Origin: Sinohyriopsis cumingii
Lineage: Eukaryota > Mollusca > Bivalvia > Unionida > Unionidae
Reading direction: 5' to 3'
Assembly: GCA_028554795.2 (NCBI GenBank)
Contig: CM068839.1
Location: 10,567,220-10,631,219, forward strand
DNA length: 64,000 nt
Shown here: one piece after another, positions 5,201 to 24,407 of the stretch
Layout: each line of letters begins with the position of its first letter
Position numbering within the stretch: position 1 is the stretch's first letter
Translations under genes and position numbers: made by a program
Notes under the pieces: generated by a model
Seen by the model: the letters and a program-made list of their open reading frames with translations, nothing else
Databases searched by the model: none
Told to the model about the DNA's origin: nothing

Positions 5201-5214
5201 CCTGACTAAGTCAT

Positions 5215-6939: not shown

Positions 6940-7266
6940 AGTAGTGAATAGGGCCACCGTAGGGTCAAGGGGACTTTAATGTTAAAAAGGGTATATCCAC
7001 TATAGGGTCTATGGGAATTTAACATGGGGAAAATGAACATGGATGAGACTGTAGAGCGTCAAGGAAAAATGAACACGGATGGGCCTGTATAGCGTCAAGG
7101 GAAATTGAACATGGATGGGTCTGTATAGCGTCAAGGGAAATTGAACATGGGAGATGGAGATAACACAGACGAGAGACAAACACTGATACAACATGAAAAA
7201 AATCTTTTGAGGCAAGAAAATCATTTCTTTTCGAGACCAATGAGGGGCCCTTAAAAAGGGCCTTTG
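6940..7266 (+). repeat. Left terminal inverted repeat
   Basis: Reverse complement of 24121-24407, matching from AGTAGTGAATAGGGCCAC inward to the stem-loop GGCCC...GGGCC and the adjoining CAAA. The left copy is longer because an internal ~37-bp subrepeat (ATGGATGGG...GCGTCAAGGGAAA) is present about three times here and twice on the right. Short open frames inside this repeat are not genes. Confidence 0.95.
7246..7262 (-). terminator. Histone-like stem-loop past gene A (TIR copy, left)
   Basis: In gene direction GGCCCTTTTTAAGGGCC, preceded by CAAA and followed by CCTCA. It is a 17-nt version of the right-TIR copy with one extra base in the loop region. A purine block CGAAAAGAAA follows about 13 nt downstream (plus 7224-7233). 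It lies about 78 nt past the gene A stop. Confidence 0.75.
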
Positions 7267-7339
7267 ACTTCTTCTTCTTCTATTTCCTCCACTTCTTCAG
7301 CCATCTCCTAACCTTTCCCACTATTCCTGTCTTCTTCTT

Positions 7340-7863
7340 CTACTTTTGGGACTCTGCCATCCAGTCAGGATGGCCGATGGCTCTAAACTTGTTCTGGATT
7401 TTGATCCAGTTATGGTTCAGCCTCTCAAACTCTTCCTTTTTCGTTATATTTTCTTTTTCTTTTCTCTCCTTTAACCAGCTTTCTTTGGTCTTCTTCACTT
7501 CTACATCTATCACCTTTCTCATCTGTTCTTCCGCTTTCTTCAGTAGTTCACCACCCCTTTTGACAAAGGGCCACTCTGACCATTGCTCTATCTCTTCCAA
7601 ATAGCATCTGACTTCTATTACCTTATCCAGAGACTCTTTTATTGTCCCCACTCTGACATAGGGGGATTAATGAATCCTCTCAGTCTCTTCACTTCTTCCT
7701 CTATTATTCCATCTATCATCTCCCTGGCTAATTTTAGTTGGTTGACATAGGCAAGACTGTTTGTTAACCTCCATTCTCTTTCAATTCTTTCAACAGCATA
7801 TTCCCCATCCACCATCCAAAAGTAAGTATTTCTTAAATCATTGAACAAAGCTGACACTGCCAT
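7340..7863 (-). pseudogene. Gene A, small coiled-coil Polinton accessory protein, frameshifted
   Basis: ATG at 7863. The first frame runs about 74 codons (to 7639) and contains RLTNSLAYVNQLKLAREM followed by IIEEEVKRL. A second frame, open from about 7655 to a stop at 7340, continues with a highly charged helical segment (KKTKESWLKERKEKEN). One frameshift near 7650 explains the split, giving about 174 codons in all. No known domain. The helical core matches genes B and C in pattern (R-L-x-K/N, L, A/I-R, E-E), so the three look like paralogues. A shared upstream motif lies at 7921-7950 and the stem-loop at 7246 follows. Function unknown; a structural or regulatory viral accessory role is only a guess. 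Confidence 0.6.
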
Positions 7864-7910
7864 CTTCTTTGCTTATTCCTTAGAAAGGCGCGAACGACGA
7901 ACGCTTTGAG

Positions 7911-7950
7911 GTTTTATCTAAAGCACGGAAATGAAGGAAAACATCCCCTA
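7911..7950 (-). promoter_or_regulatory. Promoter of gene A: shared upstream motif plus TATA-like box
   Basis: In gene direction: GGGGATGTTTTCCTTC, then ATTTCCGTGCTTTA, then the TATA-like GATAAAAC (7911-7918). The same motif precedes genes B and C at similar distance from their TATA-like boxes. Confidence 0.6.
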
Positions 7951-7974
7951 TTTTTTCTCTTCTCATATTATTTA

Positions 7975-8845
7975 CTATCCACACAAAGGTGAAGAGACAA
8001 ATAACTAACCACAATCTATTATCCACACACGCGAAGAAGCCAAATCAAACCAAAATCTATCATCCACACAGGGGAAAAGCTGAAAACATAACCATAATTT
8101 ACCATCCGCACACGCGAAGAAGCCAAATCAAACCCAAAATCTACCATCCACACACGCCAAGAAGCAGAAACAAACCCATCATTTACTATCCACACACGAG
8201 AAGAAGCCAAATCAAACCCAAAATTTACTATCCACACACGCTGAGAAGCTAAAAACATAACCACAATCTATTATCCACACACGAGAAGAAGCCAAATCAA
8301 ACCCAAAATCTACCATCCACACACGGGAAAAGCTAAAAACATAACCATAATCTACTATCCACACACGCGAAGAAGCCAAATCAAACCCTAAAATCTACCA
8401 TCCACACACGCCAAGAAGCAGAAACAAACCCATCATTTACTATCCACACACGCGGAGATGCCAAATCAAACCCAAAATGTATTATCCACACACGCTGAGA
8501 AGCTAAAAACATAACCACAATCTACTATCCACACACGAGAAGATGCCAAATCAAACCCCAAATTTACCATCTACACACGGGAGAAGCTAAAATACATAGC
8601 CACAATCTACTATCCACACACGAGAAGAAACCAAATCAAACCCAAAATGTATTATCCACACACGCTGAGTAGCTAAAAACATAACCACAATATACTATCC
8701 ACACACGAGAAGAAGCCACGGAGAAGCAGAAACATAACCATAATATACTATCCACACACGGGAAGGTTTAAAAAACCATACTCTCTACTATTTACACTAA
8801 CTTACTTCACCACTTACAAAACTCAATAATCTACCATCCACACAA
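7975..8845. repeat. Minisatellite inside the Polinton (~42-bp alternating units)
   Basis: About 18-20 units built around ATCCACACACG, alternating a unit with AAGAAGCCAAATCAAACCC and one with GCTAAAAACATAACCA. Open frames across it reflect the repeat only. It separates the gene A promoter from the gene B region. Confidence 0.9.
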
Positions 8846-8868
8846 ACGTACGTTACCGCTTACAAACA

Positions 8869-8871
8869 CAT

Positions 8872-8914
<43 letters not shown>
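8869..8914. repeat. (CA)n microsatellite
   Basis: About 22 CA dinucleotides directly after the minisatellite. Confidence 0.97.
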
Positions 8915-8919
<5 letters not shown>

Positions 8920-9006
8920 ACATCAGGAAAGGAGTATTTATAATCACACTACTCCCCATTCACACATTGGCAAATTGAATAGTGTTTCTTTTATAGATTT
9001 TTGGTT

Positions 9007-9022
9007 AGCCCTAAAAAGGGCT
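9007..9022 (-). terminator. Histone-like stem-loop past gene B
   Basis: In gene direction AGCCCTTTTTAGGGCT: a perfect 6-bp stem, 4-nt UUUU loop, A-rich 5' flank and AACCA 3' flank. The purine block AAAAGAAAC (plus 8984-8992) starts about 15 nt after the stem. It lies about 145 nt past the likely end of gene B. Confidence 0.75.
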
Positions 9023-9164
9023 GTTTTTCTGGAACTCCAGATGCACCTGTCTAATGGCGGCACCTTCCGGCTCTGGCACCACAGACACAACGTCTACTCC
9101 AATCATTGTTCCAATTCACTCGAGTGGTTGGAAGAGCAGACGGGGATTGAGTGGCTTCACTATC

Positions 9165-9581
9165 TCACTTCTCCGTTTGTTGAATAATGAACACTTCTTG
9201 TTCCCTCTGTCTTCTTTGTCTTCTTTGTCTTCTATGCCACACTCTAGGATGAACAACTGGCCTCCTTACCTCCTGTGGGTCCCTGTACTGGTTCTTGTTG
9301 TTGTTGTTGTTCACGTTGTGGGTGTGGTGCAGCTACTGGCTGTGGTGCAGCCATTGCCTATTGAGGTTCCATCACCATAGGCTTCACCTCACAACTTGGT
9401 CTCATGAACAGGTGAGGTCGGATCCCTCTCTTCTTTTCCTCCTCTTCTTTCATTCTCTCTCTTACTCCTCCTGCTCTATCCTGGCTTCTTCCACAATAGC
9501 TCGTCCAGGGAGTCGCCTGGCATACTCCAGGTGCATCTGAAGTTCCATTAACTTAGTCAGTCTGCTGCTCATTCTACTCAT
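9165..9581 (-). pseudogene. Gene B, coiled-coil protein with Gln-rich linker and Arg-rich tail, broken
   Basis: Start chosen at the ATG at 9581 (MSRMSSRL), since the TATA box at 9634-9641 lies about 55 bp upstream and earlier codons would overlap it. The first frame carries the A/B/C family core (RLTKLMELQMHLEYARRL, then IVEEARIEQEE) and stops at 9462. A neighbouring frame continues with charged helix, then an in-frame TAG, then a Pro/Gln-rich stretch (about 9290-9350) with a run of five Gln. A third frame gives an Arg/Gln-rich tail (HRRQRRQRRQREQ) ending in TGA at 9165-9167. At least two frameshifts and one stop are implied. Function unknown. Confidence 0.5.
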
Positions 9582-9633
9582 TCTGTACTGTTGATTAATC
9601 AACGATGGGAAGCCAGACTGCTGCGTGTTTGCG

Positions 9634-9675
9634 TATATATACTTGAAGCACGAACGTGAAGGAAAACATCCCCTA
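9634..9675 (-). promoter_or_regulatory. Promoter of gene B: shared motif plus TATA box
   Basis: In gene direction: GGGGATGTTTTCCTTC, ACGTTCGTGCTTC, AAG, then TATATATA (9634-9641). Nearly identical to the motifs before genes A and C. Confidence 0.7.
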
Positions 9676-9773
9676 AGACCCAAATCTTACATTACCTACA
9701 TCCCCTAAGACCCAAATCTTACATTACCTATATCAATACCAAAAAAAAAAGCGCGGACCTAAAGGAAACCCTC
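9668..9773 (-). promoter_or_regulatory. Duplicated promoter segment with a fourth copy of the shared motif
   Basis: A ~31-bp segment (CCCCTAAGACCCAAATC followed by TTACATTACCTA) is tandemly duplicated at about 9670-9731. Beyond it, 9748-9773 carries GGTTTCCTTTAGGTCCGCGC, a further copy of the A/B/C upstream motif with no gene of its own directly after it. A weaker copy lies at about 9824-9845. This looks like duplicated upstream regulatory DNA. Confidence 0.5.
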
Positions 9774-9943
9774 ACTCACTTTTTTGTACTGACAATCACT
9801 CACTGAACATTTTTTTTTACTAGTGACGGAAACGAAGGACTTAGAGTCACACTTTCTAACCAAGATAAAGAAATCATGTGCTTATAGAAGCACTTCTATT
9901 TTTTCTAACTGACTAACATAGCATAGGCAATGAATGATGGGGT

Positions 9944-9959
9944 AGCCCTGAAAAGGGCT
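9944..9959 (-). terminator. Histone-like stem-loop past gene C
   Basis: In gene direction AGCCCTTTTCAGGGCT: perfect 6-bp stem, UUUC loop, preceded by AAAAAAC and followed by ACCCCA, close to the histone ACCCA flank. No close purine block; the nearest (AGAAAAAATAG) is about 35 nt downstream. It lies about 40 nt past the likely gene C end. Confidence 0.8.
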
Positions 9960-10000
9960 GTTTTTTGTATGAACGAAGAGTGATGGCAATCTTTTAGGGT

Positions 10001-10309
10001 CTAAGATTGTGGCCTCGTCTGGTGACAGACTTTCTCACAGGATAAGGTATGCTTCTTCGGAAAGAGAAAGAGAACTCGTTGTTGTCGACAGGGCAGTCGA
10101 CAAAACCTCTGTTAGGTTTCTGTTGCTGCTGCTCTCTCTCTCTGTTCTCTCTGTTGTTTCTGAAGTCTGTACTTCTCCGTCCATTCTTCTTTCTCCCTGT
10201 TTATTTCCTCTCTGAAGAGCTCTTCTATCAGGTATTCAGTGACTTTTAACATTCTGATACGATGCAAATTGACGTAGGCTTCGTTCAGCTTGGCTAATCT
10301 TGAGCACAT
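10001..10309 (-). pseudogene. Gene C, small coiled-coil Polinton accessory protein
   Basis: ATG at 10309 gives MCSRLAKLNEAYVNLHRIRM followed by a strongly charged helix (KYRLQKQQREQRERAA) to a TAA at 10112. The same frame stays open after that TAA to a TAG at 10001-10003, so the TAA may be an inactivating mutation, or the gene may simply end there. The core resembles genes A and B. An upstream TTG extension is possible but the ATG fits the promoter at 10357-10400. Function unknown. Confidence 0.55.
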
Positions 10310-10356
10310 CTTCGTAGGAGGATGAGTCGACAATGGATGGTCAGACTGGAGACTAC

Positions 10357-10400
10357 TCCGCTTTTATGGTAAAAGCGCGGACGCGAAGGAAAACACCCTT
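10357..10400 (-). promoter_or_regulatory. Promoter of gene C: shared motif plus TATA-like box
   Basis: In gene direction: GGGTGTTTTCCTTCGCGTCC, GCGCTTT, then the TATA-like CATAAAAG about 50 bp before the ATG at 10309. Confidence 0.6.
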
Positions 10401-10769
10401 ACACGGTTTCTAGTCGGAACACTAAAATAGTGTGATGTGAGGGATAGAGAGAAGTCAAAGAGCATGGTTCTTGATACCCATAGCAAAAAACAAACGACAA
10501 ACGCACTTTTTTCAAAACACAACATTTTTTATTTAGATAACTCACAACTAACAATTCACAATTTTTTTAAAAATAACTATTCAATTCAATAACAAACATT
10601 TTTTTCAATAACTATATATTTTGAACAAGGTTGACAACATTGTGAATGAAACTGAGATTTCCACTCTTGGAAGTCGTTGAGTCATTGATGTACACCATGT
10701 TTCCTAGCTAAAAGACAAAAGATAACCATAATGACCTATGTAAAGAGGGATAACAGTCTTCCATGGCTT
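10401..10769. other. Non-coding, AT-rich stretch past the capsid gene
   Basis: Contains A/T-rich sequence (10500-10640) and no recognisable protein. No histone-like stem-loop was seen downstream of the capsid gene, unlike the small accessory genes. Confidence 0.5.
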
Positions 10770-12078
10770 CTAATAGTCTAGAATGACTTCTCTCAAACTG
10801 TTGATTTCTAGGGTATTATCGAATTCGGCATACAGGAGGACGTTCACTGTCTGGGGTAGAGGTTCTGCAAACTGAAGTTCCACACGCAGTTGACCAGATT
10901 TGATAGGGTGGAAATGTCCCTCGTCACTGCCTTGGTCTGGAGTGAAATCAAAAGCCCACAAAGCATAGCCTCCTGCATAATCGTCGTACGAAATGCCGTG
11001 ACTGGTGTTGGTCCCTAACTGTCCCGTGGCTTCGTACAGGGACAAGTACGATCTCAAGTAATTCCTGTCACTCGGAAGGTCTGGTTCACAGGGCATTGCC
11101 ATCGCTACTGACTTCAATTTTGGAGACTCTGTAGTGCTTAAACTGGAATGGACTTTGATCGTGGACTCCGTTGAGTGCTGCACTGCTCACGATGCCAATG
11201 ATTAAACGTTTGGGTAACTGTCCTTGGAACAGATGATCTTCGATCTTGGATCGGAGTCCAGCAGGAATAGTGAAAGTTTTCACTTCCACATGTCGTATCG
11301 GATACTTGGCGTTCGTTCTGTTCAAAGTGTGACTGATGTCGTTTCCCGCTTTAGGTAACACTTCCACACGTCGCACGTAGAGTCTGGCTTCTTGAATGAT
11401 AGTTTTGTACTCGGTAGCATGGGCCATCAAATGGAATGCGGTACTGCTACGATTCAGTCTGAGGCGGATATCCACACCGTTCAGCAAATACTTCTCTTGC
11501 AACCACATGTCCAAATGCAAACCATCCATCAGTTCTAAACTTCGTCCTTGCAGGATTTTCTTTCTACGGTCGTTAAAACCTACTTTGTGAGGATCGTCAT
11601 CTGCTGTCAAGGCTGTGTCGTTAAACGTGTTCTCCCCTGCTGCGTCAGCTTTCCATACCACGCAAGCATCCAGATCAGTGTTCTTGCTCTCTTTTCCGTA
11701 CGTCAAGAGATTTTCCAGGTACGCTAGGTAAGGGTAAGTATCCATGCTACTGCTGACCAGTTTGTTATTCAAATACAAATCCACTTCACTGAACAAGGAA
11801 TGCATGAAATTGTTGACGGGAGCTACTCTGGCATAGGCTCCTGGAGCAGTGTCGTCCGTTTTGATCACTTTGACTTTCAGGTTCAAGTAACTACTATTCA
11901 GATCGATGTAATCTTCGGGTTGTCCTTTGATTTCAAACTCGATGAGAGCTGAATCCATCAAAGAGGAAACGGGATGAAATTCGACCCATTGGGATTCTTG
12001 CATCGTCATCATGGTAGGCGGCATGGCAAACAGATCCAGTTCCGGCTTGGAACAAGCGCAAGACTCTTGGTGCATCAT
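10770..12078 (-). pseudogene. Polinton major capsid protein (double jelly-roll type), one frameshift
   Basis: ATG at 12078. The first frame of 330 codons begins near the Polinton capsid hallmark ELDLFAMPPT, then EDYIDLNSSYLNLKVKV and NGVDIRLRLNRSSTAFHLM. These are features I recognise from Polinton/adintovirus hexon-like capsid proteins. The frame ends at 11086, but an overlapping frame (from about 11095) continues with EPDLPSDRNYLRSYLSLYEA to a stop at 10770. Together this is about 436 codons with a single frameshift near 11090. It forms the virion shell in the viral form. It is the least damaged of the long genes, and lies 17 bp after the pVI-like gene in the same direction. Confidence 0.88.
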
Positions 12079-12095
12079 TTCTGTCTCTCTATAAT

Positions 12096-12401
12096 TTAAT
12101 AATCAAAAACGTCTCGAGCAGTTCTTCTTTTCTTTGTCTTCAGGGAAGGATGAATGTCTGAATCGGTAGCGTTCAGGGTATTTATAAGAGTTTCTCGTCG
12201 GTCCAAAATGTTTTTACCCGTTTGCAGCAAGACATTTTTGCCTGCCCTCAAGAAAGCTTCTTTGGGGTTTTGTTTGTCAATGATGACATTTTGGAGAAAT
12301 TCTTTACCATGCGTCAATGCCGCATCTTTCAAGGCATGCAATCCTCGTGTCACCATCGGTTTCAACACCAGAGCCACCGAACGAAAGGCTGATTTTAACA
12401 T
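12096..12401 (-). CDS. pVI-like small virion protein
   Basis: 101 codons from ATG at 12401. The protein has an N-terminal amphipathic helix-like segment (MLKSAFRSVALVLKPMVTRG), a central helical part and a basic C-terminus (LKTKKRRTARDVF). Polintons encode such a protein between minor and major capsid genes, and it is compared with adenovirus pVI (membrane-lytic, internal capsid). Upstream in frame the sequence RGIARQRGHGFG resembles the usual N-terminus of Polinton homologues but is cut off by a TAA, so the original start may have been further upstream and lost. Otherwise the frame is intact. Confidence 0.65.
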   Translation of the reverse strand: MLKSAFRSVALVLKPMVTRGLHALKDAALTHGKEFLQNVIIDKQNPKEAFLRAGKNVLLQTGKNILDRRETLINTLNATDSDIHPSLKTKKRRTARDVFDY

Positions 12402-12458
12402 AACCCCAAAACCATGTCCTCGCTGTCGAGCAATGCCTCGTTACACTGGATATATGAC

Positions 12459-13376
12459 TTACAATTCGTTAGAGAATCGTTTTCGAAAATGGAGTTTCAC
12501 CGTGACTTTCCCTTTGGAGAATGGAATCTTTTGTCTCAGATCTCCTTTTATAGCAATGTTGACAGTGTCAAAATACGACTTACTGACGGGCAAATAGTGA
12601 TGATGTACAAATTCACGGTGTACATGATGGGTGTTTGCACCTTCCCGGTCATTGGCCATGGTACTATCCACTTTGAAAGTAATGACCCGCAGTAACGGCA
12701 CCAAGGTGTGTCCCACCACGTTATACGCCACCACATCGGAATACACAAAGATCAAATTCAGTACTTCGTTCAGTTCTACAGGGTTTCCAAAAGCCCTGTA
12801 AAAATTCATATTACTGTTGATCTTGGGGCTCAAATTGTTTGCGACAATTTGTGCATGTCCATCCAAAATTTCAAACAAACTACCATTCAACCTGAGGGAT
12901 AATGTGTCCGTATACTAAAATTTGATCACGAGGAGATAAGCCACTTTATGGTACTCAATCTTCACAATTCTTTTGGCTCTGTTCAGGGCATTGCCAAAGC
13001 CTAAGTCGAGCCTGTCCGCAGTAGTGTCCACCAAATGTTCACCAATAAAATAATAACCTGAAGGAATTTTCAATGTGTAGATACTGAAGGATGGATTGTT
13101 GGCTGGTCTTGTGTCCCCTAAAAACCCGATTTTGTTTATTTCTTCTTGCAATTGGGCATTCAGGATTTCTACCTGGAAAGTGTTTTGCTTTTCGGTGATG
13201 TTTTTGATTTGTGTCGGGTGAATGATCTCTACCAAAGCCACTTGCCAATGGGCTTAATGATCTAATTGGATGGCCTGATGTAATTTGGCCGTGTAACAGC
13301 ACAAAGTATTGTGGGGAAACACCTCCATGGAACTGTCACTGGGTAAGGTTAAGTAAAATTGGTTGTTATCGTTCAT
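12459..13376 (-). pseudogene. Polinton minor capsid protein, two in-frame stops
   Basis: ATG at 13376, overlapping the stop of the upstream membrane-protein gene by 4 nt (ATGA). The single frame of 306 codons is interrupted by TAA at 13254-13256 and TAG at 12915-12917. The N-terminus (FYLTLPSDSSMEVFPHNTL) and the following WQVALVEIIHP are typical of the conserved Polinton minor-capsid (penton-like) protein. The C-terminal part has VVGHTLVPLLRVI, then HREFVHHHYLPVSKSYFDTV, and ends VTVKLHFRKRFSNEL, all conserved positions in that family. Placement before the pVI-like and major capsid genes fits a virion module. Confidence 0.8.
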
Positions 13377-13777
13377 AATTCCAGAGTTCTGTGGCTGTCC
13401 GAGGGGTTACTGGAAGTCAGAGGCGTGTCTCCGCCGATAAAGGGGTTGTTATTGTTGTTGGAGAGGTGACTGACACTGGACGCAAGATTCCCGTTGTTAC
13501 CGTTCCAGGAGAATTTCAGGGAGGGATTGGGAAGCAGGGAACCGTTGCAACTGCTCAATAAAATGGTCCACAATTATTTGTCTCCTTGTTGCAAACTCAG
13601 ATTGGCAATGACTGCCCCGATGACACAATACACCACAAAGATTTGGCAGAAAAAGACGATTTGCGTTTTAGGCACACGTTCTCCACACCGCACCCACAAG
13701 GGTTGTTTCTGTAAATCTTGCAGAGAAGAACTGGGTGAAGGAGTGGTAGCAGTAGCTGAGTCTGTGTGAAAGGGCAT
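13373..13777 (-). pseudogene. Polinton small membrane protein, one in-frame stop
   Basis: ATG at 13777 (MPFHTDSATATT), just past the integrase stop. A Ser/Thr/Pro-rich start is followed by a hydrophobic segment (IVFFCQIFVVYCVIGAVIAN) that should span a membrane, then a TAA at 13574-13576. The same frame continues with LWTILLSSCNGSLLPNPSLK, a second partly hydrophobic conserved element, and an Asn/Ser-rich tail to 13373. I recognise the pair of hydrophobic elements as a conserved Polinton membrane protein of unknown role. Confidence 0.65.
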
Positions 13778-13782
13778 GATGG

Positions 13783-14884
13783 TCACTTCTTTTTATAGTC
13801 GATGACTTGCGAAGCGTCGATCCAAGAATCAAAACTGGGTGGATATCCTTTCCAACTTACTTTGACTTCTTTGACACGACGTTTGCCCACTTTACGGATT
13901 CTGCGTTCGAGAATGCTTTCGATGTCGTACACTTCGTCTTCTTTTTTGGTGACACGTTGTAACTTGGGCAAATAAAACGTTCCTTTTAGCACTTCTCCGT
14001 TCATGTCTTCCATTTTATAGACGGTAGGATAACGATCATGCACTCGTCCAGTGACACGAAACAATTCGGTGGTCCAGTTGGGCAAGTAACCTTTGTCGAA
14101 AGTGCGTTTGGTTTTGCCAATGCGCACCCAATCTCCCACAGAAAACACATCACCTTTCTTGGGGAAAGACACTGTTGGGGTCGTACCAAACAGGCGATCA
14201 GAAGCTAGCACTTCGTTGTCGGGAGTCACCTCTTGCGGGGCACGTCCAATGCTTCGATGGTAAGATTGGTTGTACGCTTGAACCAGGTACGGTAAGATGT
14301 CAATGTACTTGAGAGTGTGGTGATGCGTAAAATATTTCCACATGCGTTCTTTCAAAGTGCGTTGAAAACGTTCCACGATGCTGGCTTTGATTTCGGGATT
14401 CTCGGTGGTGAAAAAATGAATGTCACGTTTCTTAAATTCTTTTTGGAAAGCTTGGTTCAGAAATTCGGTACCTTTGTCATCAAAGAGGGTGACGACCACA
14501 TTGTTTCTACACCCGTTGCAGGGCTCGCACTAACTCTCTACTCGATTTGGAAGTCAATGGCACGACCCAGGCAAATTTGGAAAAGACGTCGATGACGCAA
14601 AACAAATATTTGTAGCCCCGATTATAGGTGGCCAAATGAGAAACATCCGCTAAATCGGCTTGCCATTGATGATCGATGCCTTCCACTTGGGTGCGACTTC
14701 TGCAAAACTTGCGTCGAATGGGTTTGTGCAAAGTGTAGGTAGTTTGTTCTTGTAACCATCATTGCACTTGAGGTAAACGGAAACTTTTCAGCCGAGTTTT
14801 GGCAGCACGATACAACTTTTGAACTCCTCCGTAACCTGCAGGATGGGATGGGTCGTAATAAATACTGGCTAACACCTTCTCCAT
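13783..14884 (-). pseudogene. Polinton integrase (rve/DDE type) with C-terminal chromodomain
   Basis: ATG at 14884. About 367 codons. The N-terminal part (YYDPSHPAGYGGVQKLYRA) is interrupted by TGA at 14759-14761, then continues through the core: D in HQWQADLADVSHL (about residue 70), D in LFDDKGTEFLN, and E in the segment NPEIKASIVERFQRTL. The DDE triad is therefore still recognisable. A frameshift lies near 14505, between the first and second catalytic Asp. The C-terminus has a chromodomain-like segment (VSWKGYPPSFDSWIDAS), which in retroelements directs integration to chromatin. The enzyme inserts the element and makes the 6-bp duplication. It directly follows the 230-residue protein and precedes the membrane protein. 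Confidence 0.92.
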
Positions 14885-14895
14885 TTTTTTTGTTG

Positions 14896-15581
14896 TTAAT
14901 AAGTCACCCACTCTTCGCTGATACTACTTTGGACGGGACAAAAGGGTGGTTTGGAAACGGATTTACGTGTCCGATGGGCTACGGAAGTAGACGTAGAAGC
15001 TAGTGGTGGAGGTGGTAATGGAATGGCCTTGGGCTTCTTTTCTTTTTTTACTTCTGGTTTCCCTTCTTTCTTTTTCACTTCTGTCGAAGGAGCAGTGGGC
15101 ATCATCTTTTCAACCCAGGCTTTCATTTCTTCTTGTTGAGGTGTGAGGGAAGGGGCCAAGAAGGACGCTGCAATCTTACTAGAAATGGGGGCTCCTGACG
15201 GTGTTTGAAAAACGTCTCGTATCTCTTCTTCCTCAGGCTTTCTTGGGGTGGCGTCTCTCATGACCAATGGTGATGGTATTGGTTGTAATATGCGGGATGG
15301 ACTTTTCATCAAAGTCTTGAAATCTTTTAGAGTGGGTAGAACTGTTTCGTCTAAAGGTTTCTGGTGAAAGAGGTGCAGTCGTTGCAAGAGTTGACCGTAC
15401 TTTTGCGATTTTTCTGTTTCGGACAAATCGTGGCGATCCATCAATGACTGCAATTCGTGTTGTAACTGGGACATCTTTCTCAAATTGGGATTGGGAGGCA
15501 AATGCGGGGTCCGCTGTTCTTGCCAACGATGGTATTCCATCCATCGTTTGTAACGCACTAAACTAGTTTTCGTCCTTCCAT
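14896..15581 (-). CDS. Conserved Polinton protein of ~230 residues, unknown function
   Basis: A long frame is open from just after the preceding stop to 14896. The helical segment (MSQLQHELQSLMDRHDLSE then KYGQLLQRLHLFHQ) matches the Polinton protein family that usually starts MARKMVLVP-like and has a K-x-x-x-Y-x-x-x-L-Q-R core. An ATG at 15581 in another frame gives MEGRKLV before stopping, which resembles that usual start, so an early frameshift is likely. The downstream half is Pro/Lys/Glu-rich and low complexity, ending SSISEEWVTY. The frame is shared with the end of the preceding gene, whose TGA is only a few codons away. Role in the virion or element unknown. Confidence 0.65.
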
Positions 15582-15594
15582 TCGATGTCAAGGG

Positions 15595-16007: not shown

Positions 16008-16060
16008 CTTTGAGTCTTCAGAAGCACAAAAAACACTGATACCCAGGCTTTGTCGCAGAC

Positions 16061-16070
16061 CTTTTTTATA
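16061..16070 (-). promoter_or_regulatory. TATA box of the pX-like gene
   Basis: TATAAAAAAG on the minus strand, about 55 bp before the ATG at 16007. Confidence 0.6.
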
Positions 16071-16080
16071 CTGGAATTCG

Positions 16081-16930
16081 TCACCACTGATTGTCTTTAC
16101 GTCGTATCAACTTGAGGACAGGCATCACACGTCGTGCAGGGGTTCGCAACGGACTCAATCGAGTCAGTCCTTGATTGGACAAATCCGGTAAACTCTGTAA
16201 CATGCCCGAACTCTCTTGGACATTGATTTTGGGAACAGGTACTTTGTGAGCAGCTGCCATTGCAGTTAAAGAGCAGGAGAGTGTCACCACTGGAGGAGAC
16301 GTTCTTGGAGACACGGGCTTCCATGGTGTCTTCAATGGAGAAGTGGATGAACCTGAGGCTACCAGAGACGCGGTCACCGTCGTTGCAGGTCGTGGTCTGT
16401 GAATGTACGGTTGCGTCCTGGCCGAAGTGCCTCTGTTGCGAGTAAAAGCTGTTTTCTGTGGGCTTTTCTTTTTCTGGGAACTTCTCTGTTTCTTTTTCTG
16501 TGAGCTTTTCTTTTTCTGGGGTTGTAACCTGGTCTTGACACCATTGCTCTTTTTCTTCTTCCGGCTTCGTTTGGCTTTTTGGGGATTGGCTTTTTTCTTC
16601 GGGAGAACTTTGGGGGCATTAGGATCCCATCTTAAGAGGGAGCGAATGATGACACCTCCTACAGTACCGCTCCCTCCAGGTTTGAGTGTCGATACGGGGA
16701 TCGGCCAGTTGGGTCAAGGCTACTTTGTTTCTACCAAAAAAGCGTTTGGTTTGATGAGGAATCTGAATGATACCTTGCAGTAATTGACGTGCTGTCACCG
16801 TAAACCATCGTAAGACTTCTCTGAGACTGGTTTCTAAGACACGAACACGTATTTGTGGATTTTTTTCGTGACTGATGCCATACAAGACACGAATCAATTT
16901 GACGGGAAGATGAGACTGAAGGGACGTCAT
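16081..16930 (-). pseudogene. Basic core-like protein with pX-like N-terminus, one frameshift
   Basis: ATG at 16930. The first frame (MTSLQSHLPVKLIRVLYGI, then ARQLLQGIIQIPHQTKRFF) runs to about 16680. The adjoining frame then gives GGSGTVGGVIIRSLLRWDP and stays open to 16081. That second part holds a Lys-rich region with repeated SQKKK blocks (about 16450-16560), a Ser/Thr/Pro-rich linker and a C-terminus PARRVMPVLKLIRRKDNQW. One frameshift near 16675 explains the split; total about 283 codons. The basic region suggests DNA condensation, like adenovirus core proteins. The N-terminal helical part plus Gly-Gly hydrophobic element resembles the neighbouring 15595-16007 protein. A competing Arg-rich frame at 16374-16619 is a shadow. 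Confidence 0.6.
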
Positions 16931-16987
16931 GTTGACACTGTATGAGACAGACGAAAAGTGTCTGAGGTTTTCATAGATTTTTTGGGG

Positions 16988-17715
16988 TCATGTCCACGAC
17001 GGAGACGTGTACAGGACAGGCCCTCCGTCTTGACACCAGTGGTGAAACAAATAGGTAGGAAATCGCAAATAATCGGGGGTAGTGGGTTTCAAATCGACGA
17101 TTAGATAGGCGTGTGGAGTTTGAGTGGCATCGTCGTACGCCTGAGTCAGCCAAGGCGTTCCTAACTGTTTGGCTAAGACTTACACTTACGATTTATCTCG
17201 AGGGCTTTTAAACAAGACTACGTAAAGAGCATTGAGACTGATGGTACGATGGGTTTTACTTTCTTGAAACAAATTTGAGTGATGTAAATGACACTGGCAT
17301 TACGATGATGCCCTTTGCGCGTAAACCACAGTTTAATTTCTTCTTCGTCTTCTCCTAACATGTCATCGAAAATAACCAGATGGGTTTGACGGGGGTCATG
17401 TACGATTCCGTCGTCTTCGTTTGGAATGCCTTCCACAAACACGATGGAATCCCCTTGACTTTCTCACAAGAGGCTGTACGCCGATTGCCACTCTTTGTAA
17501 CACCACACGATTCGTTAAGGTGGACGATGGATCAAATGATGTTTATGTTCGATCAAACGTTTGACAAATTCGGTTTTGCCTGAACCGCTAGGTCCAGCAA
17601 TAAGCATGTTAAAGCAATGACGAAGATACAAAGCCTCCCAACTGGCACGATCTAAGTGTTCGTCGATGACTTTGAAAGTGGAGGAAGAGGGAACAGAGAC
17701 AGCAGAGGTAGCCAT
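16988..17715 (-). pseudogene. Polinton packaging ATPase (A32/FtsK-HerA type), broken
   Basis: ATG at 17715 (MATSAVSVPSSSTF). Walker A is GPSGSGKTEFVKRL (about residues 37-50) and Walker B is THLVIFDDML. Between them the same frame has TAA at about 17518 and TGA at about 17465. Past Walker B a frameshift near 17265 leads to THRTISLNALYVVLFKSPRD, more damage near 17180, and the conserved C-terminus AYLIVDLKPTTPDYLRFPT ending TGA at 16988-16990. The family pumps DNA into capsids. Total about 243 codons, the usual size. Upstream sequence has a TATA-like TATACAAAC near 17765. Confidence 0.88.
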
Positions 17716-18097
17716 ACTGTCAGGAATGTCACTTGTGACACGAAGACAAACAAGACAAGAGTTTGTATACTTTTTCAGGACACGTTTATTGATGTTACAA
17801 GAATAAACACGAAAGACTAAAATACATGAAAGCCACATTGTTATGTAAAACGATAAAATTCACATGAAAACGATCAAAGTGGAATAGAAACAAGTCTCTG
17901 TACAACAATTGTATGGTCACTAAGATGTCCTAGGGACAGGGTGTAATGTTCTAACAGGTTTTACATGAGGTATTGTCACACAAGTGTCCTCCCGAAATGG
18001 TCTTTCAGGAATGTCCATGACAGTCCTCTGAACTTCTTTTGTGCTTCTCAGAAAGAATTCATTTTCTTCGTTTGGTCTTGGTACTCACAATACACTA
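17716..18097. other. Intergenic spacer with possible polymerase poly(A) signal
   Basis: Contains AATAAA on the minus strand (17785-17790), downstream of the polymerase stop. No protein or stem-loop seen. Polymerase transcripts may thus be polyadenylated conventionally. Confidence 0.4.
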
Positions 18098-21000
18098 TCA
18101 GTCTTGGACGTTGTCCCTTTTTATATGCTGACCAATATCGACGTGACCGTACGGCAAAGTGAAGTGAGTGGGAAGCCGCACTCGCTTCTGGTACACGATT
18201 TGATAGACTTTTTCCAAGGGTCGACTGACGATGTGGTGAGTGGGTAAACGTACAATCTTGTTCGGTTGGTGAGTGGTCACTTTAAAGTTTTCATCCTCTC
18301 CAGACTGGAAGGCTTCTATCAATACCCCAAAGCTGACCACTCGACTGGCACGATAATTCAGAGTCAGTCCTTTCGTTTTACACTCGGTGGGCACTTCACC
18401 TTGTCTGTCCCGGTATTCGTAGCCGTAATTTTTAGGTCCGTAACCAGCAAAACTTAAAATCTTCTCGTCGGCGTGCTCGTCTGTGCAGGCTCCTAAACGG
18501 TCTCCTTCGATGTTAGGGTGACGTTGACCTTGGCGATCGATGTAGATGCAACTGTCCGTGTCAAAGTACAGGACACGATCCCCTAACAGTTCTAAAGCTT
18601 CGTACAATTGTAAGCGAGCATGGGTTGTCACGTAAGCCGCAATGATGACATTTCCAAATTCGTCGGCTTGTACAAAGTCCAGATCTTCTTCATAATTGAC
18701 TAAGATCAAATCCTCACGAACGACGTCCACGTGTTTCATAAATTTAGGTTTGTCGTGAATCATCTGGAAGTAGCGGGAAGGTTCTGTCAAATATTCCATC
18801 TTGGGTAAACACGGTCGTTGTGCCATTTTGCCCCACAAGCAATTTAACATCACTTTGGCAAACGATCGCCTGCCTTCGTTTTTCTCGATGTGGTCCAAAG
18901 AGATGCCCTCTTGTTCCCAGTATTTCTCTTTGAATGTATTTTCATCTTCGGGAGTGTGACACCAAGAAGGATAGCCACTGTTTCAGTTTCAAAAAGGCAT
19001 CCACGAAGTCTGCGAAAATGCCTTTCTGAGTTGGTTCAACCTTGGGGTATTGTTGTGTCTTGGGAAAGTGCTAAATTTCGTACACTTCTAACAGTTGGTA
19101 TCCCAAGTCCAGAGCCTTAAACAATTCCACGCTGACCCACGTTCCCGTCAAGGCGCGTTCTTCCTGGGTGTGCTGACAAGGCTGGTCTTGGTTGCACATT
19201 TCGGCACAAGTACAGCACAAGCGAAACATCAGTTTTCCTTGGCAATGGTGAGGTAACACGGGATGGTACAAGTTGGTTGGAGGCAAGACTTTGCACTTGA
19301 TCAACCCTTCGTATTGTTGAATGTGGTCCAGGTCGATGTGTTCTGTCAGCAATTGCGGGTATCCTCCAGGAAAGCGACAATATTTACACACGTAAGGATA
19401 CAGTGAGCACACGTCCAAGTACTTGATTTCCTCTCCTTTCTCTTCTTCGGTGTGGTACAGCAAACAGGTGGCATTTGTCCGTCCTACGTACAAGCTGTCC
19501 CTCGGGTTCAGGGGGTCCATCAACTTGTAACTTTCCACGATGCGTTTAAACTCGGGATCGGTTTTCAAACGTTGATCGTGCTGGTGTTCCCACATTTCCA
19601 CCACTTGGTATCCTTGCTGTTCTAACTTCAAGCGTCGCTGACAAGTGGCTTGGTACAAGTCTTCCATGGTTCGTTGTAAAAACTGCTTTTTACTCCCTCG
19701 TTCAGGGTTGCAGACAGGACATCCGTGAAATAAGCAACCGTTAAACTCGTACACGATCTAGGGGTTTTCTAAGTCCCAGCCATCCACCGAATACGTTCCG
19801 ATGGTCTTTTCGCTCCCTCCGTTGCGGACATGCTGAATCCATTTGTCTTCCTTGTCGCACAAGTAGTGTAACCAACGTAGGGCTTTGACCGAGTATTGAC
19901 ATTTGACAAAGTTGGTTGTTTGAGGACTGATAACAGCCAGGGTGTTTTCAGGCATGAATCGTTGTCGGTACACTAAGGAACATGCTTTGGCAATGGTGCA
20001 GGCTTCTTTCAAAGGATCAACACCTCCGTGTTCCATGAACAGTTCTCGAAATTTTCCACAGCAACGTCGTAAAATGTCCACGTCGCAACGACAATACTTT
20101 AACATTTCTTCCTGAAAGTCGAAAGGGTCTGAGGCGTGAGTCTGGTACCAAGCGTAGAAAGCTTCCCGTTGTTCGGTACGCATGTTGTCGGGGTCGTAAT
20201 CGATAGCCTCAGGCAAATGGGGTAGAACGGCATGTTGATTGGCTTTGGTATTGAAAAAGTGTAGAAAGTAGCCTTTAACCATTTCTGTAATTCCAAACGT
20301 TTTAGGCATTAGGCTCAAAGGCATTTCGAAATAACTCATCGAATCTTTAAACTGTACTTGTCCCACTTGCATGGAAATGATTTTGGCTGCGTTCAAAGTG
20401 ACTTTAGGACGTTCGGTGCCTTGTTCCGTATAGTACCTCAAAAGAAACTCTCCATCGTATCCCGAGAAATTGTGGGCCATCACCGTGGCATGGCGATGAC
20501 GGTCTCCGTAACGTTCGGTGTCCTCTTGGCTCCACGTCTTGTCGATGGGGTCTAAGACCCATCGGGCAAAATCGGCAAGCGTGTTCGGTCCTCGAAAGAT
20601 TTTTTCACGTCCTCCAGGAATCTTGCTGCTGTGAGGGCAATAACTAAAGATAGGCTCTTGAATGCTCTTTTCACACGCTCGATGAGCCACACAGAAATTA
20701 GGAATGTGAATCCAGTCTCTTGCATGCATTCGAAAACTTAAAAGATGAAATTGCCTTTCTTCTTCTTCTTCTTGTGACCATCATCGTTCTCTTGTTGTGG
20801 CTGGTATTTTTGCATATAGCATCGGTGTTCCAAGTCCACGATTTGGTGACAAATGTGACATGTTTTCTTTCCTGGACATACGTGTGCCTTGGCACAATTG
20901 GTACGTATGCCTTGTCCACACGTAGGGCACAATCTCAGGAGCTGACAAGCACATTTCTTCTGTGAACCTTGTGTCTTTAGATGTTGTTGGTAACAGGCAG

Positions 21001-22079
21001 GGGTGACAAAATTGCGCTGACAAGCTGGACAATGCACTCGTTCTTGTCCTTCGTCCAGACAGGGTTGGGACGCCAAACATCCTGAGCATTTCGATCCACA
21101 ATGTTTGTGTTGCTCTCGATTATTATAACCATAGTCACATTTCTCATAGTAATATCTGTATCCCAGGAATCCGGTGATACTGGTAATGGCATCGAAATGT
21201 TCATCGTGATGATAGACGTGAATGTATTTTCCATCTTTAAAATCTTGGCCTCGAAACAACAGAGGTCCGCGCACTTGTTGAGGGTGCACTTTCAAGCTGT
21301 AGCGTAGAGCTAGGACATCTTGCAATTTTTGCATTTCAGGAATGCCACAGGGTGTCTTTGGACAGACCGGCTTGTTGTAACAGGAGTTCTGCTTCATTTC
21401 GTTGTTTGGCTCTGTCCGATTGTCGAATGTTCTCCCAGACTCTTTTCCATTATACCGTGTCGTTCTTGATGGCATAGGTTATTCCCATCACGATAGCCCT
21501 GGCTTAACACATCTGGTCTTGAGGGTTGTTAATTCGGACGAGGCTCCTTTTGGTGTTGCGAAGGGCGTCCATCAATAAGACTTTTTTGCGTCCAGTCCCT
21601 TCAGGAGGAGAGACATGGGTCATGGACAGTGTGGCTTTACCATCGGTGATGTGAAACTGGTCATTGGATTGTTGTTCCTGTTGAATCTTGTCCATAACTT
21701 TGGAAGGTGTCAGTTCTGCGGGACCGATAAACTCGATCTAAACAGGGGATTTCAAGCTATCGTGATATATGGAAAGTCTCAAGCGATCGTCTTCTTTGGC
21801 TTGACATTGTCGCTTTAGTGTGGTTAACAAAGAATCCCACATCTCGGTGATGAACCCTTCTGCTTTCTCCAACGGTACGTCAGACTTGAAATCTTTAAAC
21901 TTCACCCTGTAAGTGTAAGCCGTGGTTCTAAATTTTCTAGAGGAGCGCTTTTCCGTCTCTCGAATGTGATAGTACTTTTCAGGGTTAACTGGTGAACTTT
22001 GGCTAGGTGCAGACTCTCTGGGCCTGGATTCTGGTTCACTCATGTCATCTTCAAAATCACTGGAATGAATTTGTGCCAA
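18098..22079 (-). pseudogene. Protein-primed DNA polymerase B, heavily interrupted
   Basis: About 1,320 codons from ATG at 22079. The acidic start is followed by the Polinton-specific FRTTAYTYRVKF, a Cys/His-rich zinc-binding region (20760-21080), exonuclease motifs, then polymerase motifs. Exo II is HNFSGYDGEFLLRYY (about 20450), Exo III CRCDVDILRRCC (about 20080), motif A LDVCSLYPYV (about 19395), motif B KVMLNCLWGKMAQRP (about 18845), motif C YFDTDSCIYID (about 18550). Breaks: TAG about 21736; TAA about 21506; TAA about 21453; frameshift about 21340; a stop and loss of the Asp in Exo I near 20740; frameshift about 20715; TAG 19758-19760; TAG about 19073; frameshift about 18975. It would replicate the element from protein-primed ends. 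Non-functional here. Confidence 0.95.
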
Positions 22080-22237
22080 GACTTCATCTATTGTACTAGG
22101 CGATAGATCACGTTTCTGCCTCTTACTTTCTTCTCTTTTCTTTACTAATGGATGTGATCGTTTCCTCTTGACTGCAAAAAGTCAAATGACTACTTGTTAA
22201 ACACCATGGGTCACTTTATATTCATGACAGCCCAGGG

Positions 22238-22246
22238 TATATAAAG
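22238..22246 (+). promoter_or_regulatory. TATA box of the zinc-knuckle gene
   Basis: TATATAAAG, 55 bp before the ATG at 22301, divergent from the polymerase start. Confidence 0.75.
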
Positions 22247-22300
22247 GGTGTGTGTCTTACCCTTCCACTATTCATTTTCACTCTCAAACTGAGCAGAACG

Positions 22301-22618
22301 ATGGAAGAGCCTACCAAGATCGAACTTTTGATCAGAGCTTTGCGAGGGGTCATTAGAAAATGTTGTTCAGACAAGCCAACGGACTACTCGGCCTCCTTTC
22401 GAGATAAAAGTCAAGATACTTGCTATATCTGTAAGAAGAATGGACATTGGTCTTCAGAGTGTCCCAACCGTCAAAAAAGCAAAACAGGGGCTAGTAGAGA
22501 CAAAAGTCAAGATACCTGTTATCATTGTCAAGAAAAAGGACATTGGTCGTCAGATTGCCCTAAGAAACAACTGAAGCAAGAAGAAAAAGAAGAAGAGAGG
22601 AGTTATGGACGGGAATAA
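22301..22618 (+). CDS. Two-knuckle CCHC zinc-finger protein
   Basis: 105 codons, intact, on the plus strand opposite almost all other element genes. Start set at the ATG at 22301 (MEEPTKIELLIRALRG), since codons further upstream fall between the TATA box and likely transcription start. Two C-x2-C-x4-H-x4-C knuckles, CYICKKNGHWSSEC and CYHCQEKGHWSSDC, follow near-identical RDKSQDT lead-ins, so the second is an internal duplication of about 37 residues. The tail is Lys/Glu-rich. CCHC knuckles bind single-stranded nucleic acid, as in retroviral nucleocapsid. The gene is uninterrupted in an otherwise broken element, which may be chance given its size. It is absent between gene D and the polymerase in the relic at 61 kb. 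Confidence 0.85.
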   Translation: MEEPTKIELLIRALRGVIRKCCSDKPTDYSASFRDKSQDTCYICKKNGHWSSECPNRQKSKTGASRDKSQDTCYHCQEKGHWSSDCPKKQLKQEEKEEERSYGRE

Positions 22619-23010
22619 GAAGAAATACCCTCCCCCAGGGAAGAACCCAGACACGTGCAGAAAGAGAAACAGAAGAAGAAAAGAAGAAATGGAGAAAGTG
22701 AGGAAGAAGTGGAGAGAATAAACTGTGACAGTGAAGAAATTTAAAAAACAGAGAGAGAGTGAAGACAGATACAGAAGAAGCTTATGAACATTTTAAAGTG
22801 TTATGTTGTGCTGTGAATTGGGTTGTAAAAAACTGGATCAGAATGGACCAGGCATAAAACGTAAGTGTCTTTTAGTTTTGATTTTTAGAATAAGAACCTA
22901 CACTCACGCACTCATACATTCACACATACCATAAGGTTAAAAAAGAGGGCTTTTTGAGTTTTAATTGATGTTGGCAATTGAAATACTATCTCTTTTCGAG
23001 AGAAATGGGT
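22619..23010. other. Purine-rich spacer after the zinc-knuckle gene
   Basis: 22610-22790 is strongly A/G-rich on the plus strand and could be a 3' UTR. A weak T-rich hairpin-like sequence near 22943-22962 does not meet the stem-loop pattern. The segment 22986-23010 holds the purine block downstream of the gene D stem-loop. Confidence 0.4.
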
Positions 23011-23026
23011 GGACCTGAAAAGGGTA
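23011..23026 (-). terminator. Decayed histone-like stem-loop past gene D
   Basis: In gene direction TACCCTTTTCAGGTCC: loop UUUC and the upper three pairs intact, lower stem lost. It is preceded by CAAA and followed by exactly ACCCA, and a purine block CGAAAAGAGA (plus 22989-22998) begins 13 nt after the stem, the same spacing as at the right TIR. It lies about 19 nt past the gene D stop. Confidence 0.65.
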
Positions 23027-23044
23027 TTTGGGTATTTGTTTTTT

Positions 23045-23646
23045 TTAAATCAACTTTAACTGCCTTAAGCCTTTGCCACGGCCAAGGCCTACTTGTGGTT
23101 TGACTCCTGTGGATGATGACTGAGTAGAAATCACTAAGGGTGGTACGACAGGCGTAGTCACAGGATTGGGTTGTTTTAGCTCGGGAAGGTCTTATTCTCT
23201 TCGGTCGTAATAAAGAAGTCTGATACATTTGTTTCAGACTTCTTAATTCCGCTAAAATGTCTAAGAGTACCGTGACCGTTAGGACTTTCACACTCTTGTT
23301 TCTTCGCTGCTTCTTCTTCCTGTCGTTTCCTTCTTGCCTCTTCTTCTCGCTGTTGTTGAAGAAGAAAAGCTTGTTCTGCTTCCTTTTGCTGCTGCATAAA
23401 TTTATCCAATTCTTCTTTCTGTCTCTGTTTGAAATGATCAGTAAGTGGTAAAGAAGGAGAAAGTACTGACAAAGGTACTGGTACCGGAACAAATTCTTGC
23501 GAGGTAAGAAAATCCACAAAATCCCAATTAAAAGTAGCCTCTTTTGGAAGTAGGTCCGTGTTCACTTGGGTATTCGCTGCTATTTCATCGCTTCTCGTCT
23601 CCACGACCAGTGCACCCCCATTCATTGTCTTCTGAGTTTCCTTCAT
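23045..23646 (-). pseudogene. Gene D, Polinton coiled-coil protein upstream of polymerase, two frameshifts
   Basis: ATG at 23646 (MKETQKTMNGGALV). Segments in order: an N-terminal part with TSQEF and LSPSLPLTDHFKQRQKEEL; a long Q/E/R-rich coiled coil (about 23300-23450); after a frameshift near 23290, VLLDILAELRSLKQMYQTSL; after another near 23175, a Pro/Ser-rich tail ending GLGRGKGLRQLKLI with TAA at 23045-23047. About 200 codons in all. The coil and the ILxELRxLxxMYQ motif recur in two other Polinton fragments here (about 4900-5200 and 60971-61195), always upstream of and on the same strand as the polymerase. Function unknown; no known domain. Confidence 0.65.
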
Positions 23647-23694
23647 GATTGAAAACGGTGTTGCATGGACTAACTGCGCACAAACGCTAGCGCC

Positions 23695-23717
23695 TCTATA
23701 TAGGGGATGTGACGTCA
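23695..23717 (-). promoter_or_regulatory. Gene D promoter: CRE/ATF-type site and TATA box
   Basis: In gene direction a full palindromic TGACGTCA (23710-23717) lies a few bases before CCCTATATAGA (23695-23705), about 50 bp before the ATG at 23646. TGACGTCA is the consensus site of CREB/ATF bZIP factors. Confidence 0.65.
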
Positions 23718-23813
23718 GAGACTGCTCTCATCGGATTGGACGTGTGGTGACTGAATTTTGTAAGGCATGTTTGGATTGATCAACCAACTCAATCCGTTTC
23801 GATACTCCCTTCC

Positions 23814-23823
23814 CTTATAAATA
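23814..23823 (+). promoter_or_regulatory. TATA box of gene E
   Basis: TTATAAATAA, about 45 bp before the ATG at 23866, divergent from the gene D promoter about 100 bp away. Confidence 0.65.
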
Positions 23824-23865
23824 ACCGCAGTTCGCTGCATTTCTTCACCTGTTCTAGTCACCAAC

Positions 23866-24113
23866 ATGTGGACCGACGTAGAATCCTCTATTCTCGTATC
23901 GTCAATGCTGTTCCGTACGGACTTACCCATGTATGTCAGATCATCGTGGGTCATTGTCAGGAGGACAGATACAAGCGTTTGGAAAAGAAGAATGTATGTG
24001 GAGAGACAAGGCTGTTTAAAGAAAGTTATGATCTACGGACCAGAAGTCAGACAAAGTTTGAGGAAAAGAAGAAGACCAATGCTATATCCCCTATGTTAAC
24101 GGAAGGATGTTAA
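23866..24113 (+). CDS. Gene E, small plus-strand accessory gene, probably frameshifted
   Basis: The first ATG after the TATA box is at 23866 (MWTDVESSILVSSML) and is open for 77 codons. A frame two bases later is open for 81 codons to 24113 and looks more protein-like (SRIVNAVPYGLTHVCQII, then a charged region TKFEEKKKTN). One small frameshift near the start would join them. No known domain. A possible relic of the same gene lies at 5215-5427, and both are followed by a histone-like stem-loop. Which frame is real is uncertain. The antisense frame at 23715-23954 is taken as a shadow. Confidence 0.4.
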
Positions 24114-24120
24114 CATAAAG

Positions 24121-24407
24121 CCAAAGGCCCTTTTCAGGGCCCCTCATTGGTCTCGAAAAGAAATGACTTTCTTGTCTCAATTTTTTTTCATGTTGTATCA
24201 GTGTTTGTCTCTTGTCTGTGTTATCTCCGTCTCCCATGTTCAATTTCCCTTGACGCTATACAGGCCCATCCATGTTCATTTCCCTTGACGCTCTACAGTC
24301 CCATCCATGTTCATTTTTCCCATGTTAAATTCCCATAGACCCTATAGTGGATATACCCTTTTTAACATTGAAGTTCCCTTGACCCTACAGTGGCCCTATT
24401 CACTACT
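24121..24407 (-). repeat. Right terminal inverted repeat
   Basis: Reverse complement of 6940-7266, ending CACTACT at 24407. Its inner edge is the stem-loop at 24126-24141. Confidence 0.95.
24126..24141 (+). terminator. Histone-like stem-loop past gene E (TIR copy, right; best match)
   Basis: GGCCCTTTTCAGGGCC: perfect 6-bp stem and UUUC loop, matching the metazoan histone consensus GGYYCUUYUNAGRRCC at all 16 positions. It is preceded by CCAAA (24121-24125), as in histone mRNAs, and followed by CCTCA where histones have ACCCA. A purine block CGAAAAGAAA (24154-24163) starts 13 nt after the stem, where histone genes carry the U7-binding downstream element. It lies 13 nt past the gene E stop. Confidence 0.85.

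Follow-up and report, generated by a model that had tools for sequence, protein, structure and literature searches.

Histone-type 3′-ends behind the accessory genes of Polintons in the freshwater mussel Sinohyriopsis cumingii

According to PMC7026596, histone mRNAs stand alone among the known mRNAs of eukaryotes in lacking a poly(A) tail, and the same text describes the pairing of U7 small nuclear RNA (snRNA) with a histone downstream element (HDE) as well as a substrate with the purine core AAAGAG. Here, we analyzed a window of 64,000 nucleotides from Sinohyriopsis cumingii (assembly GCA_028554795.2, contig CM068839.1, positions 10,567,220 to 10,631,219), in which a decayed mobile element of the Polinton type spans positions 6940–24407. 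With the described Polintons/Mavericks and adintoviruses this element shares terminal inverted repeats (TIRs), a short target site duplication, a DNA polymerase B (PolB), an rve integrase with a chromodomain, a putative piece of a P-loop ATPase and a double-jelly-roll capsid protein. The 3′-ends of its accessory genes share with the histone mRNA 3′-end (Rfam family RF00032) the stem sequence, the 4-nt loop, the A-rich 5′ flank, the ACCCA-like 3′ flank, a purine-rich HDE at a distance of 13 nt and a short 3′ untranslated region (UTR). Unlike at histone 3′-ends, the genes in question are not histone genes and belong to a mobile element. An earlier sequence-only reading of the window knew of no report of such ends in Polintons, and we found none for Polintons, Mavericks, adintoviruses or other mobile elements in the open-licence literature searched, including passages of PMC11071296. 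We consider it very probable that the accessory genes, termed A to F, end like replication-dependent histone genes and that SLBP and the U7 small nuclear ribonucleoprotein (snRNP) of the host generate 3′-ends without a poly(A) tail.

The sequence-only reading had placed five hairpins in the element, each in sense orientation to a small gene that precedes it, and all five were recovered at their positions and with the architecture described. To score them, we used R1, a covariance model built only from five host histone 3′-ends, with which the window was scanned without filters, and RF00032, which has a gathering score of 34 bits and was also run at a relaxed threshold. The hairpins of gene B (9007–9022, minus strand; R1 44.7 bits, E 9.8e-8; RF00032 26.1 bits), gene C (9944–9959, minus strand; R1 23.6 bits, E 0.011; RF00032 26.3 bits) and gene E (24126–24141, plus strand; R1 42.5 bits, E 3.4e-7; RF00032 31.0 bits) are perfect over 16 nt, with the closing pairs A-U, A-U and G-C, respectively. 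The hairpin of gene A (7246–7262, minus strand; R1 35.9 bits, E 1.2e-5; RF00032 21.3 bits) contains one extra base, and that of gene D (23011–23026, minus strand; R1 25.4 bits, E 0.004; not listed with RF00032) retains only the upper stem together with the ACCCA flank. The six best R1 matches in the window are, in this order, B, E, A, a further site at 5608 outside the element, D and C (E 9.8e-8 to 0.011), and the next match has an E value of 1.4. Both R1 and the alignment show the 6-bp stem and 4-nt loop of the host histone 3′-ends. On a 16-point hairpin score, the element contains three full-score sites, whereas 40 dinucleotide shuffles give an expectation of 0.025 per shuffle; at a score of at least 14 the excess is small and closer to background (5 versus 1.65 expected). 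Chance hairpins were ruled out by these shuffles, by the R1 ranking and by the genome-wide counts given below, for which the reversed controls were 0. With RF00032 at the relaxed threshold, a site at 52879, outside the element, reached 22.4 bits, slightly above hairpin A.

Moreover, the stem is followed, at a distance of exactly 13 nt, by a purine-rich NAAAAG motif in hairpins A (GAAAAG, 7227–7232, minus strand), B (TAAAAG, 8988–8993, minus strand), D (GAAAAG, 22992–22997, minus strand) and E (GAAAAG, 24155–24160, plus strand); the sequence-only reading had missed this motif. A U7-type element is thus present at the host spacing of 13–14 nt at four of the five hairpins, C being the exception. 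The common form of this region in the Polintons, GAAAAGAGAT, contains the AAAGAG core known from the histone substrate. At C ends of other copies (L096 and six more), GAAAAG was present in all seven seen, five times at 13 nt and twice at 14 nt. The finding is therefore not confined to the hairpin but extends to both cis-acting signals used in histone 3′-end processing.

The same ends recur elsewhere in the 2.9-Gb genome. A search with RF00032 yielded 75 scored hits, all of them above the gathering score; only one of 14 control genomes gave a match, below the cut-off. The best genomic copies scored 34.5–45.6 bits. We read 68 of the 75 loci, which derive from many contigs, and every one matched Polinton accessory genes. 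None of the 68 carries the histone motifs searched for, and misplaced histone genes were rejected as the source of the hits. The 68 loci contain 109 hairpins of the pattern used, and immediately upstream of every one of the 109 lies a sense-oriented match to an accessory gene. NAAAAG follows at exactly 13 nt in 106 of 108 hairpins, one near a locus end having been dropped.

To follow the association gene by gene, gene ends were defined by tblastn in the 68 loci, and a hairpin score of at least 14 out of 16 was counted. A hairpin followed the gene end in 44/44 cases for D, 29/29 for E, 12/12 for A, 9/9 for F and 20/22 for B; the two misses for B are wrong-strand matches. The stop codon is mostly 15–50 nt away from the hairpin (range 14–84). 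Since a hairpin had served to select the loci, the fair test rests on the ends other than the search hit. Among these, the hairpin was present at 27/27 D ends (21 with full score), 18/18 E ends (16), 20/22 B ends (15) and at the single A and F ends, with NAAAAG at 13 nt in 27, 17, 17, 1 and 1 of them, respectively. The antisense strand of the tested stretches showed a hairpin in 1 of 135 cases and the coding sequence in none of 135. The internal negative control was provided by another gene of the same elements, which encodes a CCHC zinc knuckle (22301–22618 in the window, plus strand; PF00098) and has an AATAAA at 22717 and no stem-loop. At the ends of this gene in the other loci, no hairpin was found in 20 cases and A[AT]TAAA was present in 18, the nearest hairpin being 355–740 nt away in 19 of the 20 and 1442 nt away in the remaining one. 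The test proposed in the sequence-only reading, whether hairpins cluster 3′ of genes in sense, thus came out in its favour. Likewise, its proposal that these are histone-type 3′-ends gains support, to which the U7-type element at host spacing adds, and related copies carry such hairpins by the tens of thousands.

These numbers stem from exact pattern counts over the genome with the reversed pattern as control. We counted 19,418 occurrences of GGCYCTTTTYAGRGCCAC, 31,063 of GGCCCTTTTCAGGGCC followed by AAAAG at 13-nt spacing (perfect hairpins), a count that overlaps with the former; the A-U variant AGCCCTTTTCAGGGCT occurs 21,286 times, and each reversed control gave 0. The samples for GGCYCTTTTYAGRGCCAC and the A-U variant were drawn from 100 places listed for each, all of which fall in the initial 10 Mb of a single contig. 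In the former (about every fifth place), 20/20 had an accessory-gene match upstream in sense and AAAAG at 13 nt; in the latter (every tenth place), all 10 hairpins lie at the end of gene B (4) or gene C (6), and the distance to the element is 13 nt in 8 and 14 nt in 2. Provided that these samples are representative, most of the more than 50,000 perfect hairpins are borne by Polintons. At about five hairpins per element, this abundance would correspond to a copy number in the order of 10,000. In IMG/VR, the hairpin pattern gave three matches, in contigs that look to us like phages; a relative of the capsid was not found in IMG/VR.

A closer standard than RF00032 was provided by the histone genes of the host. 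An 8.3-kb histone repeat (L069) comprises H4, H2B, H2A, H1 and H3, and all five genes have the hairpin and a GAAAAG 13–14 nt after the stem. The nearest named relatives of its H1 are from Mytilus and Saccostrea. In addition, the hairpin-plus-element pattern recovers host H2B genes: 7 of 100 places listed belong to a tandem array with units of approximately 1.85 kb. One unit of this array that was read (G000:C1:5073350-5075260) carries a 127-aa H2B gene and lies apart from the 8.3-kb quintet repeats.

Block conservation was determined from alignments of neighbour ends only, excluding the search hits. At the D ends (N = 27), the hairpin (0.951) and the downstream element (0.989) are better kept than the 3′-UTR (0.884) and, by a small margin, the coding end (0.907); at the E ends (N = 18) the values are 0.979 and 0.984 versus 0.795 for the 3′-UTR. 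No other blocks of the D and E 3′-ends are kept as well as these two. At the B ends (N = 22, including two wrong-strand pieces), the hairpin (0.857) and the element (0.811) compare to 0.714 in the surroundings. The closing pair is A-U, a compensatory change, in 19 of 20 gene-B hairpins and G-C in nearly all hairpins of the other genes. In a set of 18 ends that we selected, 94.4% of the cells pair, and four two-sided changes were observed, a number reached in 0 of 500 shuffles that leave relatedness in place. In the same set, two pairs with two-sided changes were reached by 32 of 500 shuffles, nor did the pair types outnumber those of the shuffled sets.

Taken together, these observations suggest the following course of events. 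The accessory pre-mRNAs would present an SLBP stem-loop, mostly 15–50 nt past the stop codon, followed at a distance of 13 nt by a GAAAAGA with which the U7 snRNP of the host could pair. Cleavage by the host between the stem-loop and GAAAAGA would yield mRNAs that lack a poly(A) tail and end in the stem-loop. The element would thereby run two classes of 3′-ends, at least one other gene, that of the CCHC protein, keeping an ordinary poly(A) signal. By analogy with the behaviour of histone mRNAs, SLBP binding and U7 snRNP cleavage would go along with a limitation of the accessory transcripts, and with them of the accessory proteins, to S phase; mRNAs that are stable and translated only during DNA replication would suit an element that copies itself with its own polymerase. 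We somewhat favour the full form of this proposal, in which six types of accessory genes form a regulon under the histone mRNA programme of the host, poly(A)-less, SLBP-bound and replication-limited, with the CCHC transcript being polyadenylated.

If this holds true, a mobile DNA element with a histone 3′-end on many non-histone genes would break the rule that only histone mRNAs lack poly(A) tails, and it would reveal a way for a selfish element to read the cell cycle of its host. Given the more than 50,000 perfect hairpins, and again provided that the samples represent the genome, the element would make greater use of SLBP and U7 than anything else in the animal and might even titrate them. 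The thousands of natural variants would lend themselves to probing the requirements of SLBP and U7, and the proposal bears on how Polintons time their replication and on whether they behave as viruses.

Several results speak against this interpretation. None of the sites in the window, which holds a decayed copy, reaches the RF00032 gathering score of 34 bits; in the covariance check proposed by the sequence-only reading, the hairpins scored far above background with the host-derived model and stayed below the Rfam threshold. Hairpin C of the window is devoid of the downstream element and hairpin D of this copy lacks its lower stem. In the 68 loci, five B ends out of 22 (including the two wrong-strand matches) and one E end out of 29 lack the element at 13 nt. 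Moreover, genes A, B, D, E and F together show an A[AT]TAAA no more than 200 nt from the stop codon at 28 of their 116 ends, and therefore some polyadenylation of these ends is possible. Host SLBP was not found with PF15247 and host U7 snRNA was not found with RF00066, both of which were also silent in the control genomes, and a pattern for the Sm site of U7 remained at background (45 matches versus 80 for the reversed control). Twelve of these 45 candidates were read; none is a convincing U7 gene, and they resemble either a repeat within coding sequence or unrelated DNA. Finally, partial Polinton contigs of other animals, described below, showed no histone-type hairpin (none with Rfam; best E 0.53 with R1).

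Among the alternative explanations, the one that survives best assumes that the hairpin binds SLBP and thereby serves stability, export or translation, while the transcripts are mainly polyadenylated downstream and U7 plays a minor role. The A[AT]TAAA motifs within 200 nt of the stop codon, which are found at 14/44 D, 6/29 E, 4/12 A and 4/9 F ends, are in line with this assumption; at B ends, however, they are absent (0/22), and the position of the U7-type element at exactly 13 nt in nearly all hairpins, together with its rank as the best-kept block of the D and E ends, argues against a minor role of U7. We therefore regard this explanation as unlikely. Less probable still is the view that a histone 3′-end, acquired on a single occasion, has spread as a functionless passenger. 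All copies in the genome share ancestry and the motif is retained in dead copies, as such a view would have it, but the hairpin stands behind six gene types (of which B and C look related), the closing pair in B is changed in a compensatory manner, the CCHC genes of the same elements are free of it, hairpin and element are better kept than the flanking non-coding DNA, and the hairpin is encountered even in a remnant whose PolB has only 36% identity. That the palindromes act as DNA, in replication, packaging or recombination, is hardly credible and was rejected: although two sites lie at the inner TIR ends, the hairpins also stand behind the internal genes B, C and D, they are oriented in sense to the gene at a short distance from the stop codon, they are accompanied on one side only by an element whose spacing is fixed, and their loop is rich in T when read in sense, as in the host histone genes.

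Returning to the histone-type ends, we asked how far they extend among Polintons. Directly to the left of the main element lies the end of an older, diverged Polinton (3770–5653). It comprises a PolB remnant of a different Polinton (3770–4742, minus strand; tblastn, 36% identity, E 1.3e-34) and a remnant of gene E (5375–5600, plus strand), for which tblastn alone gave E 0.038 and the local alignment a score of 57, reached in none of 2000 shuffles. Behind this E remnant stands the sixth stem-loop (5608–5653, plus strand; R1 26.1 bits, E 0.0028), decayed and with two mismatched pairs. Because it follows the E remnant of a Polinton with only this degree of PolB identity, the sequence suggests that the histone-type end predates a deep split among the Polintons of this host.

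For comparison, contigs from a tubeworm-symbiont (L073), a mussel-symbiont (L074) and a Breoghania (L075) assembly were inspected, which are partial and contain mostly core genes. Their capsid genes are related to that of the main element with 41–44% identity. In L074 and in L075, a loose scan returned a single T-loop hairpin each, whose stem was not the consensus one. The claim that such ends occur in Polintons hence stands for those of this host, including the strongly diverged remnant, and was not borne out for Polintons in general by the partial contigs of these three other animals. The contigs sit inside bacterial genome assemblies and are probably host contamination. Gene D has relatives in 20 proteins, which are encoded on short contigs of diverse origin; in P0132, one of these, the reading frame looks to us as if it ran through into an apparent hairpin and element.

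The main element itself is interrupted in PolB, integrase, capsid and several accessory frames. The TIR end sequence AGTAGTGAATAGGG is present on both sides. The left TIR (6940–7264, plus strand) is complementary in pieces, at 90–98%, to the right one (24123–24407, minus strand), and the flanking hexamers GACATA and GTCATA agree at five of six positions; the TIRs, about 300 bp in length, and the hexamers correspond to the long TIRs and the 6-bp target duplication of Polintons/Mavericks. Hairpins A and E sit at the inner ends of the left and right TIR, respectively, a position that had escaped the sequence-only reading. PolB lies in pieces at 18098–20780 (minus strand); two of them, 19071–19754 and 19758–20729, match PF03175 (E 3.9e-14 and 8.3e-13), in agreement with the putatively protein-primed family B polymerase of Polintons/Mavericks, and 18098–18898, without a Pfam match, was assigned to PolB by its position. 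The integrase (13783–14758, minus strand) consists of a piece of the rve core (PF00665, E 2.4e-6, below the Pfam cut-off) and a chromodomain (PF00385, E 3.7e-7, above it), and is of the retroviral type known from Polintons/Mavericks. As for the FtsK/HerA-type packaging ATPase of Polintons/Mavericks, the putative P-loop piece is weakly matched, best by Pox_A32 (E 0.0017) and then by FtsK (E 0.0036), both below the cut-off. The frameshifted major capsid protein (10770–12102, minus strand) has 448 relatives, the closest named ones being bivalve proteins (Mercenaria, Ostrea, Crassostrea, Saccostrea); the predicted fold of one relative, P0011, matches the capsid structures of Sputnik, mavirus and PBCV-1 in the PDB, which points to a double-jelly-roll capsid.

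The accessory genes are placed toward the two ends of the element, with A to D on the minus and E on the plus strand. Genes A (7298–7872; tblastn with A copies of other loci and open reading frames), B (9054–9572; tblastn) and D (23048–23646; tblastn, relatives known) are frameshifted; gene C (9994–10363) was delimited by open reading frames and the C ends of other copies, and gene E (23866–24099; tblastn and open reading frame) is open and encodes 77 aa. To our eyes the start of gene C resembles gene B, and the two look related. No Pfam family matched the accessory proteins above cut-off, and LxCxE motifs were absent from 11 reference sequences. For gene D, the predicted fold, one long helix with the rest disordered, is uninformative. 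In another locus (L032), an open frame at 1565–2563 on the minus strand, without a Pfam match, looks to us like a fusion of gene A with an adenain/Ulp1-like protease. Genes D and E form a divergent pair with hairpins approximately 1.1 kb apart (23011–24141 in the window, and L059), a spacing that recurs along contig C1. In addition, a 42/85-bp minisatellite lies between genes A and B at 8006–8718, and a 55-bp tandem repeat, with 4.4 copies at 97%, is located at 6063–6304, just outside the left end of the Polinton.

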